Assembly: GCA_012798975.1 (NCBI GenBank)
Contig: JAAZME010000229.1
Location: 1 to 14,351, forward strand
From: Gallicola sp.
GTDB taxonomy: Bacteria; Bacillota; Clostridia; Tissierellales; Peptoniphilaceae
DNA: 14,351 bases
Reading direction: 5' to 3'
The notes beneath the pieces are model-generated. The model was not told the origin of the DNA and did no database searches. It was given only the letters and a program-made list of their open reading frames with translations. The number at the start of each line of letters is the position of its first letter. The first letter of the stretch is position 1. A program made the position numbers and the translations under genes. This document shows positions 126 through 9,559 of the stretch, piece by piece.

Positions 126-162
126 AAAAAGGACCTGCTCTTTAAAAGAGTAGATCCTTTTT
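126..162 (-). terminator. Intrinsic terminator of the pst-pho operon
   Basis: Arms 126-143 and 145-162 form a long stem with 16 of 18 positions complementary plus a wobble pair; the tip is CTCTTTTAAAGAG. On the minus strand the stem ends in TTTTTGTTTT. The stem begins at the phoR stop codon. Plus-strand reading also ends in TTTTT, so it could stop transcription in both directions. Confidence 0.85.
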
Positions 163-1384
163 ATTCTTCTGGAAGTTCTATGGGAAGTGTAACAACAAAA
201 ACACTGCCTTTATTCAGCTGGCTCTGTACAGAAACTTTACCGCCATGAATAATCGCCACATGCTTTACGAGGGAAAGCCCAAGCCCTGTTCCCGACTTTT
301 TGCCTCTTGATTTGTCTGCTACATAAAAGCGTTCGAAAATACGTCTCTGCTCCTCTTCTGTCATGCCAAGACCCGTATCTTCTACTATGATTTTCACATT
401 ATTAAGCTCTCTGTAAATTTTCAGACTGATGCTTCCTTCTTCCACATTGTATTTTGTTGCATTGGAAAGAAGATTGGTAATGAGTTCGTCGATTTTTTCC
501 TTATCGCCGTAAAAACCGATATCTTCTATCATAGTAACAAGTTTCAGCCGTTTATGTCCGATAATATTCTGATAATCCTCTGCAATTTCCCGGCCTAGTT
601 CGCCTATATTAAATTCCTCAAAAAAGATATTTAGTTTTGTAGATCCGTCGTATTTCGATAAATTAATAATATTATCAATCAGCTCTAAAAGCTTCTTGGC
701 TTCTGTCTGAATAATTCCAGCAAATTTTTTAACGTCTTCGCCTTTTGCGATATCGTGCTGGATCATTTCTCCATAACCGGATATAGACGTTAAAGGAGTC
801 TTTAGTTCATGGGTAATATTTGCTGTAAATTCGGAACGCATCTTTTCGCTTTGCTGAATCTTATCATAGGAATAGTCCATCTTCTGCTTTTCCAGCTGGA
901 TTTCTTCTATAAACGGATTTAACTCGTCTATTTTTGTGGTCACGATATCGTTTTGAAAGATTTTCGTTACTAGATGTTCTTCAGGATCAAATTCTTTTAA
1001 AATTTTCTTTGTAATCAAAAACCCGATCAGCTGTACGGTTAATATTTCCAGAACAATAATACCTACTGCCGACGGAAGCACACCCATAAAAAGATCAAGA
1101 TAGTTCGGAGGTTCTTCAAAAAACACCCATTCTTCCCCGTTAACGTCCCTTGTTTGGGCAGATACCTTTCCGCTTAGGGAAGGATTTTCAGATACCCTTG
1201 CTTTTTGAAAAGTAGTCGGGATATTTTCGATCTCCTTGTCCTTGTAGTTTTGGGCAATCTCATCTATTACCTGTTGTCTTCTAAAAATCAAATCATCCTG
1301 CAATGCTACAGATTGCAAGAAAATCGTCAGCATCGTGACCAACACGATAATGACGATTAAATATCTAGTCAGTAATCTTCTCAT
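161..1384 (-). CDS. phoR: Phosphate-regulon sensor histidine kinase PhoR
   Basis: A membrane histidine kinase expected to phosphorylate PhoP in phosphate starvation. The 407 residues comprise membrane segment 1 (about 7-27), a short extracytoplasmic part (about 28-100), membrane segment 2 (about 103-124), a cytoplasmic linker with charged helices (126-178), the dimerisation/phospho-acceptor domain with His192 (FTANITHELKTPL), and the ATPase domain with N-box NLLSNATKYN (304-313), DTGLGM (336-341), FERFYV (350-355) and GTGLGLSLVKH (365-375). No PAS domain and no clear HAMP domain is seen; the larger PhoR proteins of Bacillus have both. The ATG follows the phoP stop by 9 nt behind a weak AGGA that overlaps that stop. 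The assignment to PhoR rests on context more than on the sensor region. Confidence 0.92.
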   Translation of the reverse strand: MRRLLTRYLIVIIVLVTMLTIFLQSVALQDDLIFRRQQVIDEIAQNYKDKEIENIPTTFQKARVSENPSLSGKVSAQTRDVNGEEWVFFEEPPNYLDLFMGVLPSAVGIIVLEILTVQLIGFLITKKILKEFDPEEHLVTKIFQNDIVTTKIDELNPFIEEIQLEKQKMDYSYDKIQQSEKMRSEFTANITHELKTPLTSISGYGEMIQHDIAKGEDVKKFAGIIQTEAKKLLELIDNIINLSKYDGSTKLNIFFEEFNIGELGREIAEDYQNIIGHKRLKLVTMIEDIGFYGDKEKIDELITNLLSNATKYNVEEGSISLKIYRELNNVKIIVEDTGLGMTEEEQRRIFERFYVADKSRGKKSGTGLGLSLVKHVAIIHGGKVSVQSQLNKGSVFVVTLPIELPEE

Positions 1385-1393
1385 TTTATATTC

Positions 1394-2077
1394 CTAATCT
1401 TCGATCATATACCCGACATTGCGTACCGTTTTTATATATTTTCGGTCATCGGTCAATTTTTGGCGCAGACTTCGTATATGGACATCCACAGTTCTCGATT
1501 CCCCTTCGTAATCATATCCCCAGATCTCATTGGTAATTTGATCTCTCGTTAAAACAATATTTCGATTTTTAATGAGATAGTACAACAGTTCAAACTCTTT
1601 AAAGGTCATATCGACAAACTCGCCATCAATCTCTACTGTCCGCTTGTTCAAGTCGAGAATAATATCTTTAAACTCTACATTGGCTTCTTCCACATTTTCT
1701 TCTCGGCTTGGAATTCTTCTAAGTACTGCTTTGACTCTCGAAATCATCTCCATTACCCCAAAAGGTTTTGTGATATAGTCGTCGGCTCCCATATCCAAAG
1801 CCTTAACTTTATCATACTCTTGATCTTTTGCTGTCAGCATAATAATGGGAATATCCTCGATGTTTTTTGTGGAGCGGATCTGTTTCAAAATTTCATATCC
1901 GTCTTCTCCATCCAGCATAATATCGAGGATTATCAACGACGGCTTCTCTTGATCTATCTGTGTAAACAAAGATGCCCCGTCTCCAAAACCAAGGGCTTCA
2001 TAGCCGCTGTTGTTTAAAGCATAAGAGATTAAATTTCTGATATTTTCTTCATCTTCCACTATATAAATAGCAGCCAT
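1394..2077 (-). CDS. phoP: OmpR/PhoB-type response regulator PhoP
   Basis: The transcription factor of a two-component system, 227 residues. The receiver domain (1 to about 118) has the acidic pocket Asp9/Glu10, phospho-acceptor Asp52 (ILDIMLDGEDG), Thr82 (LTAKD) and Lys104 (TKPF). The C-terminal winged helix (about 130-227) contains MTFKEFELLYYLI, the recognition-helix region SRTVDVHIRSLRQKL, and the NVGYMIE wing. Its place after phoU and before phoR, with Pho boxes upstream of pstS, identifies it as the phosphate regulator. It probably activates the whole operon including itself. The ribosome site is GAAGGA, 6 nt before the ATG. Confidence 0.93.
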   Translation of the reverse strand: MAAIYIVEDEENIRNLISYALNNSGYEALGFGDGASLFTQIDQEKPSLIILDIMLDGEDGYEILKQIRSTKNIEDIPIIMLTAKDQEYDKVKALDMGADDYITKPFGVMEMISRVKAVLRRIPSREENVEEANVEFKDIILDLNKRTVEIDGEFVDMTFKEFELLYYLIKNRNIVLTRDQITNEIWGYDYEGESRTVDVHIRSLRQKLTDDRKYIKTVRNVGYMIED

Positions 2078-2098: not shown

Positions 2099-2737
2099 TT
2101 ATATTAATTCGCCTTCTATAGAATATGTTACCCATTCTGAGATATTTTTAGCATGACTTCCGATTCTTTCCAAATATTTTGCAACTAAAAGGAGATTTAT
2201 GGCGTATTCAGGTTTTTCATTGTTTTTTAAATCTTCTATAACCAAATCTCTGATCTCAACGAAATATTCTTTAACCTTTTGATGATGTTCTGAAATGCCG
2301 TCTACTAAAGAAAGATCTCCCGAAATATAGCTTCGTATACTGTGTTTTACCATATCGATAGAAAGCTCCGCCATCTTGATCATTCTTTCGAAAGATTTCT
2401 GGCTTCTATGTTCTGTCATTTCCAAAGAAATTTCAGCGATATCAACTGCATGATCTCCGATTCTTTCCATATCCGTGATCATTTTAAGTGCGGCAGATAT
2501 CAGTCTTAAGTCGCTTGCAACAGGCTGTTCTTTCAAAATCAGCTTCAAAGCTCTGCTTTCAATTTTACTTTCGTAGTCGTCTACTTCATCATCACTTTGA
2601 CGTATAACAAGGGAAGTATCCTTATCGCCGTTTATCATAGAGTAAATTGCCATTGTAATTCTATCAGATATTAAGGAACCCATATCCGATAGATCATCGT
2701 TTAATTTTTCCAACTCTCTATCGTATCTTCTTCTCAT
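2099..2737 (-). CDS. phoU: Phosphate transport regulator PhoU
   Basis: A cytoplasmic all-helical protein that links the state of PstSCAB to PhoR and limits phosphate uptake. The 212 residues form two PhoU repeats. The first has the metal-binding motif DMERIGDHAVDIAE (89-102). The second reads YLERIGSHAKNISEW (188-202), where the usual form is ERIGDHATNIAEW; Ser194 replaces the conserved Asp, so the second metal site may be altered. The ATG follows AGGAGG by 5 nt, and the upstream pstB stop is 9 nt away. The context between pstB and phoP fits a role in signalling. Confidence 0.96.
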   Translation of the reverse strand: MRRRYDRELEKLNDDLSDMGSLISDRITMAIYSMINGDKDTSLVIRQSDDEVDDYESKIESRALKLILKEQPVASDLRLISAALKMITDMERIGDHAVDIAEISLEMTEHRSQKSFERMIKMAELSIDMVKHSIRSYISGDLSLVDGISEHHQKVKEYFVEIRDLVIEDLKNNEKPEYAINLLLVAKYLERIGSHAKNISEWVTYSIEGELI

Positions 2738-2746
2738 TTTTTCCTC

Positions 2747-3496
2747 CTAGCTAAAACGTCCGGTTATATATTCTTCTGTTTTACTGTTCTTAGGATTTGC
2801 AAAGATCTGCTCCGTATCTCCAAATTCTATTAAATCTCCTAATAAGAAGAATCCTGTCTGATCTGATACACGTGTTGCCTGCTGCATATTATGAGTTACT
2901 ATTACAATGGTAAAGTTCTTTTTCATATCGTAAAGAAGCTCTTCTATTTTCGCTGTGGAAATCGGATCTAATGCAGAGGTTGGCTCGTCTAACAATATCA
3001 CTTCCGGCTGAACCGCCATCGCCCTTGCGATACAGATTCTCTGCTGCTGTCCTCCAGAGATAGACAAGGCCGATTTATTTAAATTATCTTTTACTTCGTT
3101 CCAAATAGCTGCCTGCTTTAAAGAACGTTCTACAATTTCGTCTAATACTTTTTTATCCTTTATACCATGGGTACGGGGACCGTAAGCGATATTATCGTAG
3201 ATCGATTTCGGGAAAGGGTTCGGCTGCTGAAATACCATACCGACTCTCGTTCTCAAATCATATACATCGATATCATTCCAGATGTCTTTACCGTCAAGCA
3301 TAATACTTCCTTCGTGGCGAAAAGAATCTACCAAGTCGTTCATACGGTTCATCGCCTTTAACAAAGTTGATTTTCCGCAGCCTGAAGGCCCAATGAATGC
3401 AGTTACTTTATTTTCTTGGATCTCCATATTTACTTCTTTAATGGCGTGAAAATCTTCATACCAAGAATTATAATTTTTCACTTCTAATTTAGCCAT
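2747..3496 (-). CDS. pstB: Phosphate ABC transporter ATP-binding protein PstB
   Basis: The ATPase that powers phosphate import through PstC and PstA on the cytoplasmic side. The 249-residue length is normal. Walker A is GPSGCGKST (36-44), the Q-loop is [14 protein letters not shown] (Gln90), the signature is SGGQQQR (147-153), Walker B is [12 protein letters not shown] with Asp170 and Glu171, and the switch is His202 in [17 protein letters not shown] and the [13 protein letters not shown] sequence mark it as PstB rather than a general transporter ATPase. The ATG overlaps the pstA end by 8 nt, with GGAGG 11 nt upstream. phoU follows after 9 nt. Confidence 0.97.
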
Positions 3497-4325
3497 TCGA
3501 TTGTACTCCTCCTAGTTTTTGAGCAAATTGTGTCGATATAAAATTCAATATTAATACGATAATAAGAAGAATCACGCCTGTTGCGTATGCTGCTTCTACA
3601 TGAAGTCCTTCATTGGATAATACATACATATGAAGAGCTAAGGTTCTTCCGCTGGCAGCAGATCCAACAATATTTGACGGAACTTCTGCTACTGTTCCAG
3701 ATGTATATAAGAGGGCTGCCGTCTCTCCTACGATTCGCCCCGTAGCAAGAATAACCCCTGCTAAAATTCCGGGCATCGCCGATGGAAGAACAACTTGGAA
3801 AATCGTACGGACTTTTCCTGCTCCAAGACCGAAACTGCCTTCTCTATAAGATTTCGGCACAGCTAAGAGCGCATCTTCAGTAGATCTCATAATCAAAGGT
3901 AGAACCATAATCGCCAAGGTCATAGACCCTGCCAAAATACTGTAATTCCATTCTAAGAAAATAACAAAAAACAACATCCCGAACAAACCGTATACGATAG
4001 AAGGAATTCCTGCCAGCGTATCGGAAGTAACTTGTACAATTTGTACCAGTATATTATCTTTGTTTGCGTATTCTATCATATAAACTGCCGTTAATACTCC
4101 TAGGGGAACTGCAACGACTAAAGATAAAGCTACCATAATAAATGTATTGATTATAGCAGGCATCATCGAAATATTGGTAGAATTATAGGTCCATTCGAAC
4201 ATAGAAGGATTTAAGAAGGATACCCCTTTAACCAAAATAAATAGAATGATAAAAAACAAAGATAGAATCGTTAAAAGTGCTGCTATATGCACTAAAGCTT
4301 TTAACAGCTTGCTTGCTTTTCTCAT
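3489..4325 (-). CDS. pstA: Phosphate ABC transporter permease PstA
   Basis: The second membrane subunit of the phosphate channel, 278 residues with about six membrane segments (the first at roughly 12-34). The coupling loop reads [22 protein letters not shown] and is followed by [16 protein letters not shown], typical of PstA. The block [17 protein letters not shown] is also shared by the family. AAGGTGA within the last pstC codons serves as ribosome site, and the ATG directly follows the pstC stop. The 3' end overlaps pstB by 8 nt and contains its ribosome site, GGAGGAG. Confidence 0.95.
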
Positions 4326-5213
4326 CTATTTCACCTTCTTTCTTTTACTTAATACAAATGCTAGATTAATTAGCAGAATAAATATAAAGAGGATTGCTCC
4401 TGTAGCAACCAAGGCTTCTCTATGGAGTCCCGCTGCATAACCCATTTCCAACACAATGTTCATGGTCATTGTACGCACGCCTCTAAATAAGCTGGTAGGA
4501 ATTCTCGCCTGTCCTCCTGCTACCAGAATAACCGCCATCGTTTCTCCGATTGCTCGGCCGATTCCTAGAATAATCGCTGAAAAGATCCCTTGTTTTGCTG
4601 CCGGAATCTGTACTGTAAAAATTGCTCGTTCTTTTGTAGCCCCCAGCGCAACCGCACCGTTAAAATACGCCTTCGGTACCGCTCTCAATGCTGTCTCCGT
4701 TAAAGTGATAATGGTCGGCAGAATCATAATTCCAAGAATTATAATGGCTGCAAGCATTGTAAGACCGGAACGGTTTGTAAGTCTTGTAATCATCGGTACA
4801 ATTAAAACCAGACCAAAAAAACCATAAATGATGGAAGGTATTCCCGCCATCAGATTAACCCCGGTTGAAACTAGTTTATACAATTTCCCCTTGCTATACT
4901 GAGCCATATATACAGCAGTCAAAATTCCAATAGGTACACCGATAATAATAGCGCCTATGGTTACATAGACGCTACCTACGATCATCGGGAAAATACCAAA
5001 GGAAGGGTTGCCTGCTGTAGGCTTCCATTCCATACCGAACACAAAATTACCAAGTCCGATCTGGCTTATAGCAGGGATTGAATTCCCAAAAATAAATAGA
5101 CAGATTACAATAACTGCGATGATGGAAAATGTAGCAGCCACTGTAGTCAGTATGCGGAAGGCTTTCTCCTTCGCGTAAAAAGCTCGCTTACTACTGTCAG
5201 TGTGAATACTCAT
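4326..5213 (-). CDS. pstC: Phosphate ABC transporter permease PstC
   Basis: One of the two membrane subunits forming the phosphate channel. The 295-residue protein has about six membrane segments, the first at roughly 22-43. The ABC-permease coupling (EAA) loop is visible as AVPKAYFNGAVALGATKERAIF, followed by the PstC/PstA signature IGRAIGETMAV. NLMAGIPSIIYGFFGL is another family block. The gene starts 25 nt after pstS, behind AAGGGAG. Its TAG stop is immediately followed by the pstA ATG with no spacer. The position directly after pstS separates it from PstA, which is the second permease in the usual operon order. Confidence 0.95.
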   Translation of the reverse strand: MSIHTDSSKRAFYAKEKAFRILTTVAATFSIIAVIVICLFIFGNSIPAISQIGLGNFVFGMEWKPTAGNPSFGIFPMIVGSVYVTIGAIIIGVPIGILTAVYMAQYSKGKLYKLVSTGVNLMAGIPSIIYGFFGLVLIVPMITRLTNRSGLTMLAAIIILGIMILPTIITLTETALRAVPKAYFNGAVALGATKERAIFTVQIPAAKQGIFSAIILGIGRAIGETMAVILVAGGQARIPTSLFRGVRTMTMNIVLEMGYAAGLHREALVATGAILFIFILLINLAFVLSKRKKVK

Positions 5214-5238: not shown

Positions 5239-6114
5239 TTACTTAATGTCTTCCCAGTTTAAAATCGAACCAGTATAGATGCCTTTAAGATTTTCTAAAG
5301 TAATATCTTCAGCAGCATTATCTTTATGAACGATTACTGCGATTCCGTCCATTGCGATTGGAGTACCTGTTAATTGTGATGCTTCTTCTTCTTTTAGTTC
5401 ACGTGAAGCCATACCGATTTGAACAACTCCGTCGATTGCATTTTGAACACCTGTAGTAGAATCAGATTGGCTTACTTGAATATTTGCATTTTGATTTACT
5501 GCTTTATATCCTTCTGCTAGTTTTTCCATAACAGGAGTAACAGATGAAGATCCTCCTACTGTAACGTCTCCGCTTACGTCCGCAGCCTGATATGCACCAG
5601 TACTGTCTACTTTGATATAACCTTCTGCCTCTACAATAGCTTGTCCTTCGTCGCTTAAGATAAATTTAATGAAGTCTTCTGCAACCGGCTCAACGTTTTC
5701 GCCAGTTACGATATTGAAAGGTCTTGCAATCGGATAAGTTTTATCTGAAACCGTTGCTGCTGACGCTTCTACTCCATTGATTTTAACTGCTTTTACTGTA
5801 TCGTTTAAACTTCCTAGAGAAATATATCCGATAGCCGCAGGATCGCCAGATACAGTAGTCATCACTGCATTTGTACTATTTTGGATCGCAGCGTCTGCTG
5901 TAGTATTGTCGTTATCATCTTCTTCAACACCAGTCAATTCAACGAAAGCTCCCCTTGTACCTGAACCTGCTTCTCTCGATACAACTGTAATAGGACCAGT
6001 TAAGCTCTCTCCTGCACCAGTATCTGCTCCTGTGTCGGCTCCACCGCCGCCGCATCCAACTAATACAACAGCTACTGCAAATGTTGCTAATAATACCTTA
6101 ATGATTTTCTTCAT
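5239..6114 (-). CDS. pstS: Phosphate ABC transporter substrate-binding lipoprotein, circularly permuted
   Basis: Captures phosphate outside the membrane for PstCAB. A lipoprotein signal peptide is clear: KK start, hydrophobic core, then LVGC with lipidated Cys21, followed by a Gly/Asp/Thr-rich spacer. The order of conserved blocks is unusual. PITVVSREAGSGTRGAF (41-57), AIGYISLGSL (94-103), YPIARPFNIVT (127-137) and FIKFILSDEGQAIVE (148-162) come first; in standard PstS they form the second half. GGSSSVTPVMEKLAE (187-201), IGMASRELK (233-241), AMDGIAVIVH (254-263) and GIYTGSILNWED (278-289) come last; they normally open the mature protein. The protein stops where the standard sequence would run on into the SREAGSGTR block. 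Both binding-site halves are present and the 291-residue length is normal, so it is probably functional. AGGAGG lies 5 nt before the ATG. It is the first gene of the operon, behind the Pho boxes. Confidence 0.95.
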   Translation of the reverse strand: MKKIIKVLLATFAVAVVLVGCGGGGADTGADTGAGESLTGPITVVSREAGSGTRGAFVELTGVEEDDNDNTTADAAIQNSTNAVMTTVSGDPAAIGYISLGSLNDTVKAVKINGVEASAATVSDKTYPIARPFNIVTGENVEPVAEDFIKFILSDEGQAIVEAEGYIKVDSTGAYQAADVSGDVTVGGSSSVTPVMEKLAEGYKAVNQNANIQVSQSDSTTGVQNAIDGVVQIGMASRELKEEEASQLTGTPIAMDGIAVIVHKDNAAEDITLENLKGIYTGSILNWEDIK

Positions 6115-6590: not shown

Positions 6591-6666
6591 CCTGGGTTGC
6601 GAAGCAATCCCGCCCAATGCCTGGCTGTCCTTGGACACGCCGCCTGGGTCGTGCAGCGATCCCGCC
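6591..6666 (-). repeat. Three tandem GC-rich hairpin repeats after the aminopeptidase gene
   Basis: Copy A (6591-6614) and copy C (6643-6666) are 24 nt each and identical at 20 positions; both start CCTGGGT and end ATCCCGCC on the plus strand. A divergent copy B (6620-6642) lies between them. Each folds into the same shape: a 3-bp outer stem, a single bulged base on one side, a 4-bp inner stem and a loop of 3 or 4 nt. A to C contains a compensatory change, T-A at positions 8/16 becoming C-G. The block is far richer in GC than its surroundings. It begins 6 nt after the stop codon and would be transcribed in the 3' UTR. Possible roles are mRNA 3' protection or a relic of a small repeat family; I do not recognise the family. 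Confidence 0.7.
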
Positions 6667-7902: not shown

Positions 7903-8343
7903 TTATCTGTTCTTGGAATATTTATCTCTTAAATATTCTATCCCATCTACATATCCCTGAAAACCCCGGCCTTTGATTATCTTCTCGCAATACTCTCCGA
8001 TATAAGAGATCTTTCGAAACTCTTCCCTTGTTTCGATATCGCTGATATGGACTTCGACGGCAGGAATTTGAACTGCTTTCAAAGCATCTAGAATAGCTAC
8101 CGAGGTATGAGTATAAGCTGCAGCATTAATCACGATTCCATCCATCCGTCCGTGGGATTGCTGAATCCGATCTACAAGATCGCCTTCGTGGTTGCTTTGA
8201 TAAAACTCCAAAGTTTCAGAATCTCCTTCTGTCCTCTCTCTGATATAGTCGATCAAATCATCATAGGTTTCTTTCCCGTATATCTCCGGTTCCCGAATCC
8301 CCAGCATATTAATATTGGGTCCGTTAATGATCAATATTTTCAT
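7903..8343 (-). CDS. aroQ: 3-dehydroquinate dehydratase, type II
   Basis: Dehydrates 3-dehydroquinate to 3-dehydroshikimate by the type II (dodecameric) mechanism. The start is set at the ATG at 8343 (MKILIINGPNINMLG), 6 nt after GGAGG; this gives 146 residues, the usual length. An in-frame ATG at 8376 would add 11 residues unlike the family and has no ribosome site. Active-site positions are present: NGPNINMLG (8-15, Asn10), Arg17, Tyr22 (IYG), YQSNHEG (48-54), NAAAYTHTS (73-81, Asn73 and His79) and EVHIS (97-101, His99). Downstream, SDIETREEFR stands where SNxxxREEFR is typical, so Asn is replaced by Asp while Arg106 is kept. The gene is translationally linked to aroE-aroK and followed 9 nt later by the aminopeptidase gene. 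Confidence 0.95.
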   Translation of the reverse strand: MKILIINGPNINMLGIREPEIYGKETYDDLIDYIRERTEGDSETLEFYQSNHEGDLVDRIQQSHGRMDGIVINAAAYTHTSVAILDALKAVQIPAVEVHISDIETREEFRKISYIGEYCEKIIKGRGFQGYVDGIEYLRDKYSKNR

Positions 8344-9559
8344 TAAAATCCTCCAGTATCTTCTCGACAGATTCATCTATTTTACCGTTTTGTATTTCCA
8401 CATCGGAAAACCTCTGATATTTAGGCAGCCTTATCTCCTGCATTTTCTTTAAAGAAGAAAGTCCACCCTTTGATAAGGGTCTGCCTTGTATCGGAAGATC
8501 CTCAAGTTTTCGATTTAAAAAATAAATTCTTCCATTCTGCTTCAAAGGTAAATAATTTCTTTCGTCTAATACAGAACCTCCTCCTGTAGATAAGACGATT
8601 CCCGTCATCTTTCCGAATTCCAGTATCACTTCCCGCTCTAATTTTCTGAAGGCTTCTTCTCCTTCGGAGTCGAAAATAGCAGGTATTGATTTTCCCGCTT
8701 TCTTTTCGATTTCAGAATCTGTATCAATATGCTTTCTCGATAATTTTTCTGCCAGAGCTTTTCCCAAGGTAGATTTTCCTGAACCAGGCATTCCGATGAG
8801 TATGATATTTTCTGTTTTTCGGCGAAGCTTCTGTATTACCTTTTCAGTAATCACTTCGCTTATTTTTTTATCCATAAAAAGTTCAGCCGCAGCCTTTGCC
8901 TGAACCACAAGCATAGGCAGACCGTCGCTGCGTTTTATTCCAAGCTCTCGAGCTTGAAGAAGAAGGGCTGTACGATGAGGGTTGTATACCACATCGCACA
9001 CCCCTTCTAAGAGGGAAAAGTCTTTTAAATCGATAATCCTCTCCAAATTATGAGGATACATTCCTACCGGAGTGCAGTTGATAATAATCTCCGCATCATA
9101 ATGGCTGTACAGCTCTTGAAATGTTCTGTTTCCCGATCTAGAAAATTTCAGCACTTCCTTTGCCTTTAGAAAGCTCAGTACCGCTTCTACCGTTTGAGAA
9201 GTGGCACCGTCTCCCAGTATAATAACCTTTTTATTTTCCACTTCGATAGAAGCTCTTTTCAGCTGATACTGAAAACCGTAAAAATCCGTATTATAGCCCA
9301 GAACTTTTCCTTCTCTTTTTATAACCGTATTTACAGCACCGATTTTTAAAGCATTTTCTTCGATGTCGTCGCAGTACTGCATGATGGCTTTTTTATAAGG
9401 AATGGTAATATTAAAACCTGCTATATCTTTTCTTTGGATCAGTTCTTCGATTTCCTGTTCTTCTCTCTCGAACAGTTCATATTTATATGAACCGAAACAG
9501 CTGTGAATTTCTGGCGAAAAACTGTGTTTAAGCGTTTTTCCTAATAAACCGTAAATCAT
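8324..9559 (-). CDS. aroE-aroK: Fused shikimate dehydrogenase - shikimate kinase
   Basis: One 411-residue protein carrying two consecutive pathway steps: reduction of 3-dehydroshikimate to shikimate, then phosphorylation of shikimate. AroE occupies about 1-240: the substrate-binding HSFSPEIHS (12-20), ITIPYKK with catalytic Lys56, GYNTDFYG with Asp92, a nucleotide loop GDGATS (116-121) that departs from the usual GAGG(A/S), and NCTPVGMYP. AroK occupies about 250-411: Walker A GMPGSGKST (256-264), DTD (279-281), FRKLE (304-308), STGGGSV (324-330) and GRPL (359-362). Few linker residues separate the domains and there is no internal stop codon. The ribosome site is TAAGGAG, overlapping the pheA stop. 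The last codons contain the aroQ ribosome site, and the ends overlap by 20 nt. Confidence 0.95.
   Translation of the reverse strand: MIYGLLGKTLKHSFSPEIHSCFGSYKYELFEREEQEIEELIQRKDIAGFNITIPYKKAIMQYCDDIEENALKIGAVNTVIKREGKVLGYNTDFYGFQYQLKRASIEVENKKVIILGDGATSQTVEAVLSFLKAKEVLKFSRSGNRTFQELYSHYDAEIIINCTPVGMYPHNLERIIDLKDFSLLEGVCDVVYNPHRTALLLQARELGIKRSDGLPMLVVQAKAAAELFMDKKISEVITEKVIQKLRRKTENIILIGMPGSGKSTLGKALAEKLSRKHIDTDSEIEKKAGKSIPAIFDSEGEEAFRKLEREVILEFGKMTGIVLSTGGGSVLDERNYLPLKQNGRIYFLNRKLEDLPIQGRPLSKGGLSSLKKMQEIRLPKYQRFSDVEIQNGKIDESVEKILEDFNENIDH
8350..8354 (-). promoter_or_regulatory. Ribosome binding site deciding the aroQ start
   Basis: GGAGG on the minus strand, 6 nt before the ATG at 8343 and inside the last codons of aroE-aroK. 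It favours this ATG over the in-frame ATG 33 nt upstream. Confidence 0.8.

Follow-up and report, generated by a model that had tools for sequence, protein, structure and literature searches.

Has the phosphate-binding protein PstS of a Gallicola sp. been circularly permuted, and if so, is this an assembly error, a peculiarity of one genome or an established variant? The question is raised by a stretch of 14,351 nucleotides (contig JAAZME010000229.1; hereafter the window), whose minus strand encodes a PstS in which the blocks SREAGSGTRGAF, AIGYISLGSL, RPFN and EGQAIVE precede GSSSVTPVMEKLAE, GMASRELK, DGIAVIV and IYTGSILNWED, just as the original prediction had read from the letters. We conclude, with a probability of roughly 0.93, that the protein is a true PstS and that circular permutation has swapped the two halves of its class II binding-protein fold. 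The permuted PstS is no one-off but an established variant, albeit one that has been described little; its family is large, and the structure of one member has been solved. In the following, A-half and B-half denote the N-terminal and C-terminal halves of the standard protein.

5239..6114, minus strand: pstS, circularly permuted phosphate-binding lipoprotein of 291 amino acids (open reading frame, profile and structure matches, rotation)
6052..6114, minus strand: signal peptide and lipobox, residues 1-21, Cys21 being the predicted lipidated residue (sequence reading; predicted local distance difference test score, pLDDT, below 50 in the model)
5605..6003, minus strand: B-half, residues 38-170, with SREAGSGTR (46-54), AIGYISLGSL and RPFN (sequence comparison)
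5572..5610, minus strand: joint of the old C-terminus and N-terminus, approximately residues 169-181 (rotation optimum)
5242..5592, minus strand: A-half, residues 175-291, with GSSSV (188-192), IGMASREL (233-240), DGIAV (256-260) and NWED (sequence comparison)

Exchange of the two halves

Both profiles that describe standard PstS match the protein in two stretches. PF12849 reaches 125.7 bits against a cut-off of 27, and its start (positions 3-125 of 267) falls on residues 175-289. The start of TIGR02136 (34-155 of 295) falls on residues 177-290, and this collinear model remains under its cut-off of 206.6 bits for both permuted proteins scanned, marginally for the window PstS (199.6) and at 133.1 for the other. 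The standard order of halves in these families is not that of the window protein, which we class as a permuted PstS variant and not as a standard PstS. Solved standard PstS sequences also match in two stretches with the order reversed: in the Clostridium perfringens protein (PDB 4q8r), chain residues 4-113 pair with residues 182-290 of the window PstS (E 7e-26) and 118-246 with 40-170 (E 1.2e-24). A full-length match in the native order, in sequence as well as structure, is found with PDB 4h1x.

Further evidence comes from rotating the mature protein at every residue and recording local scores against nine relatives, seven of normal order and two permuted. Rotation restored a collinear match to all seven unpermuted relatives, raising the scores from 236-331 to 419-548, and shuffled sequences scored at most 69; with the two permuted relatives the natural, unrotated order scored best. 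The best starts lie at residues 162-171, and those within 3 points span 162-186, in agreement with the claim that the old termini are linked at about 166-186. The protein had also been said to stop where the SRExGSGTR block would follow, and the C-terminal overhang of permuted proteins indeed has a median of 1 residue, as has the gap between the halves in normal proteins. Taken together, these results support the interpretation given in the original prediction.

What does such a protein look like? About a dozen residues link the old C-terminus (EGYIKV) to the old N-terminus (GDVTVGGSSSV). The chain is newly broken after the NWED helix, ahead of the strand that runs to SRExGSGTR, while the two-lobed fold and the phosphate pocket remain those of standard PstS. 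The pocket residues of both halves, which presumably contact phosphate, are conserved as in normal PstS, and ordinary phosphate binding is therefore expected: the ligand would be bound between the lobes and passed to PstCA, under the control of PhoU and the PhoPR/PnpRS-type regulator of the same gene cluster. The sole topological difference would concern the tether, as signal peptide, lipidated cysteine and flexible spacer would enter at the break, which in the class II fold lies on the SRExGSGTR lobe. This relocation may have functional consequences.

Distribution and linkage to the permease

The original prediction suspected a lineage feature, and homologues with the same block order, mapped on trees, bear this out: the permuted order is common to many Firmicutes and occurs in well over 150 sampled genomes. 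Of 41 relatives, 22 match collinearly in the permuted order, two carry an A-B-A-B fusion, 11 match in the normal order or partially, and six do not match at all; in the window's family (130 genomes) the counts are 102 with a collinear match, five with other matches only and 23 with none. One member of this family, genome G003, has a PstS 95% identical to that of an entry labelled uncultured Helcococcus, which indicates Peptoniphilaceae of the order Tissierellales. A sample of the phylum holds permuted PstS in at least 18 of 398 genomes, the window's included. For the family of Blautia wexlerae (250 genomes) the matches listed contain at least 73 permuted and about 65 normal forms, and two genomes, G745 and G616, carry both. 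Named carriers include Blautia, Butyricicoccus, Choladousia and Traorella. The best 120 of 7995 matches to the window protein, itself included, comprise 117 of B-A order, two B-A-B and one A-B-A. At three loci (L067, L069 and L179) two adjacent permuted pstS genes stand ahead of pstC.

Outside the phylum, Helicobacter valdiviensis has a permuted pstS (locus L017, 7947-8792) with pstC, pstA and pstB after it. Because its PstS branches, on a long branch, within the Firmicutes clade, the tree suggests horizontal transfer of the permuted gene to this species.

The order of the halves can be compared with the lineage of the permease by pairing each fetched PstS with the nearest PstC, which gives 174 rows (120 permuted, 54 normal or tandem). 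Duplicate loci, L018 (no PstS), L173 (partial duplication), L181 (broken copy) and L097 (a separate genome, removed by a filter that was too wide) were omitted beforehand, here and in the 179-row PstS tree discussed below. The PstC trees are quick trees with no bootstrap. With all 174 rows, two changes of PstS order are needed; once seven rows are dropped (L072, L073, L074, L054, L058 and both of L090), the remaining 119 permuted and 48 other rows, partly non-independent because some genomes are represented twice (159 of the 167 rows are different), need a single change, with a support of 99 in the SH-like approximate likelihood ratio test (SH-aLRT). PstS order and permease lineage travel together. 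This fits co-inheritance as a unit and by itself is no proof of functional dependence.

It is possible, albeit doubtful, that the permuted order is an adaptation, in that a distinct PstC/PstA needs the tether on the other lobe and PstS and permease have co-evolved. The near-perfect co-segregation just described would fit, and so would the spacer between the cysteine and the first half, which is longer in permuted than in normal proteins (median 27 versus 14, with overlapping ranges; 112 of 125 permuted and 48 of 54 normal proteins with a recognised lipobox). A comparable tethering advantage has been proposed for the sugar-binding protein TpMglB-2 (PMC4990184). However, operons are inherited as units, so that linkage is expected without any functional need, and the tether of the window PstS is disordered in the structure model, so that its attachment point may not matter.

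Tandem fusions and the origin of the permutation

In the solved PstS of Vibrio, Borrelia, Planctomyces and Mycobacterium the halves match at the standard places, and on this distribution the standard order is ancestral. The permutation is old. The simplest route to it would be a tandem duplication in frame whose outer halves were then lost, and the permuted gene has been passed on ever since with a distinct PstC. An A-B-A-B protein minus its outer A and B has exactly the permuted form, and this arrangement exists in a single open reading frame in four genomes, with pstC next in each:

L056, 6108-7775: A-B-A-B PstS fusion, 556 amino acids
L057, 5635-7392: A-B-A-B PstS fusion, 586 amino acids
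L092, 6850-8481: A-B-A-B PstS fusion, 544 amino acids
L093, 6632-8224: A-B-A-B PstS fusion, 531 amino acids

The first copies of L092 and L093 cluster together and so do the second copies (support 87 and 97); the duplication is therefore older than the split of the two genomes and an assembly error is unlikely. In L056 and L057 the two copies of each fusion are mutual nearest. Since the former duplication is shared and the latter copies are closest to each other, tandem duplications of PstS seem to have occurred separately at least three times. In the trees the fusions group with normal-order relatives; they parallel the permuted form and did not give rise to it. At locus L173 (3498-4898), a PstS reading frame of 467 amino acids upstream of pstC has a partial internal duplication.

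Two further proteins, P0005 (B-A-B) and P0010 (A-B-A), were rejected as duplication intermediates, their halves being near-identical to separate existing genes. In the trees of the halves, the first A of P0010 is at distance 0.0 from the normal PstS of one genome and the second at 0.0 from Blautia, and the last B of P0005 is at 0.0 from another normal PstS. They lie on contigs of 4529 and 1669 bases and are better explained by chimaeric assembly or by recent recombination. No row of the set is near-identical to P0006 (B-A-B, contig of 1689 bases); of its halves, the first B and the A are near permuted rows (0.37) and the last B near normal rows (0.54), making it a candidate for a real hybrid. 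The normal-order PstS of locus L082 (5774-6652) has its B-half nearest permuted rows and its A-half nearest normal rows; judged by these affinities, it may be a sister lineage of the permuted clade or a recombinant.

Did the permutation happen once or twice? Locus L072, from the window's own family, encodes a permuted PstS that is 37% identical to that of the window, has a longer joint and belongs with a distant PstC. Its best 120 of 5346 relatives all have the B-A order with the break at the same loop, and together with it they make up clade II (L072 and P0121-P0240), as opposed to clade I, the large clade that holds the window PstS and 4h1x. A tree of 65 chosen rows separates the two clades, its starred branches forcing two changes, but constraining all permuted rows into one clade is not rejected (approximately unbiased, AU, test, p 0.32). 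The A-half tree alone groups the clades (95/84); the B-half tree sets them apart, and here, too, a single clade is not rejected (AU p 0.165). Over all 98 rows, the tree requires three changes of the permuted label, owing to the long row L072 and to L071 beside L082. The 179-row tree, which omits seven long rows of 186, L072 included, needs one change (support 86, not starred). A search of 398 genomes of the phylum with the clade II protein P0133 gave no match at E 1e-40 and, having no positive control, is uninformative. We consider it rather unlikely that Firmicutes saw two or more permutations of PstS, all at the same loop and all through tandem A-B-A-B fusions of which the existing ones would be living parallels, with each form tied to its own permease lineage and the tether position a selected part of the receptor-permease interface.

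Gene cluster and function

The window PstS heads a cluster of genes read in the same direction, in the order pstS, pstC, pstA, pstB, phoU, response regulator and sensor kinase:

4326..5213, minus strand: pstC, permease belonging to the clade associated with permuted PstS (TIGR02138 above cut-off; tree)
3489..4325, minus strand: pstA (TIGR00974 above cut-off)
2747..3496, minus strand: pstB (TIGR00972 above cut-off)
2099..2737, minus strand: phoU (TIGR02135 above cut-off)
1394..2077, minus strand: response regulator, which from its position we take to be of the PhoP/PnpR kind (open reading frame)
161..1384, minus strand: sensor kinase, best NCBIfam match PnpS at 225 bits, under the cut-off of 400 (profile search)

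The four operon partners pstC, pstA, pstB and phoU each exceed their curated cut-offs. This setting, in which the pstSCAB-phoU operon is complete and accompanied by a two-component system, and the conserved pocket make it very improbable that the protein uses the PstS fold for another ligand or a sensing role instead of phosphate import, even though several named relatives are labelled merely 'substrate-binding domain-containing protein' and some permuted pstS-like genes (L187, L188, L189, L190 and L198) have no pstC within the fetched stretch. The latter possibly serve another role.

An artefact that mimics the swap, whether by misassembly or by reading through a frameshift from one normal pstS gene into an adjacent one, might be suspected in a fragmented assembly (375 contigs, 82% complete) and given the few short metagenome contigs with hybrid half-copies (P0005, P0006 and P0010), but it is refuted by independent loci and by the crystal structure 4h1x with its identical order: the window gene is a single open frame and has a signal peptide of its own, and 120 permuted genes, some from genomes occurring twice, are paired with a nearby pstC among the fetched loci. 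Misassembly, which the original prediction had named as the finding that would overturn it, is excluded because the same order recurs in many genomes (followed by pstC in 16 of 18 homologous loci, the other two holding no PstS) and because the gene is the sole PstS match in its own assembly.

Two neighbouring features may be added. The gap upstream of pstS holds a GC-rich, partly palindromic 24-mer (6591-6614) that recurs at 13 other sites of the assembly with 85-100% identity (111-base query, 18 matches in all, itself included); it is a repetitive extragenic palindrome-like (REP-like) interspersed element. At 8324-9559 on the minus strand, one frame of 411 amino acids fuses shikimate dehydrogenase and shikimate kinase (AroE-AroK), each part below the curated cut-offs shown.

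Significance and comparison with known systems

Natural circular permutation appears little described in class II receptors of ATP-binding cassette (ABC) transporters, and the present case concerns a central nutrient receptor of many genomes. Among the open-access matches listed, no title or abstract start was about a permuted PstS; how far the family extends, its link with a single PstC clade, the parallels among tandem fusions and the possible second event are undescribed there. The PDB title of a Synechocystis structure (9l8j) speaks of an evolutionary hotspot and may bear on the subject; no paper on it was found among the same matches, nor one on 4h1x in a search for its code in the same open-access set. 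As related genomes hold PstS in all three forms, normal-order, permuted and tandem-fused, both the stepwise origin of the permutation and the importance of tether position for an ABC importer are directly testable.

The closest known relative is PDB 4h1x, released in 2012, which is SP_2084 of Streptococcus pneumoniae TIGR4 (molecule name Phosphate-binding protein pstS 2): it has the same permuted order in another species. Clade II proteins share with the window PstS the B-A order and the break at the same loop, and differ in the identity, joint and permease described for L072. Standard PstS (PDB 4q8r, 4gd5, 1twy and 4exl; TIGR02136, PF12849) has both halves, the pocket motifs and the operon partners in common with it, but the halves stand in the opposite order and the structures match over about half of the length. 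The glucose-binding TpMglB-2 (Tp0684; PMC4990184), which has relatives in Gram-positive gut bacteria, is likewise a naturally permuted, lipid-anchored ABC binding protein; however, it has a Type I (cluster B) sugar-binding fold, an unrelated permutation and a different ligand.
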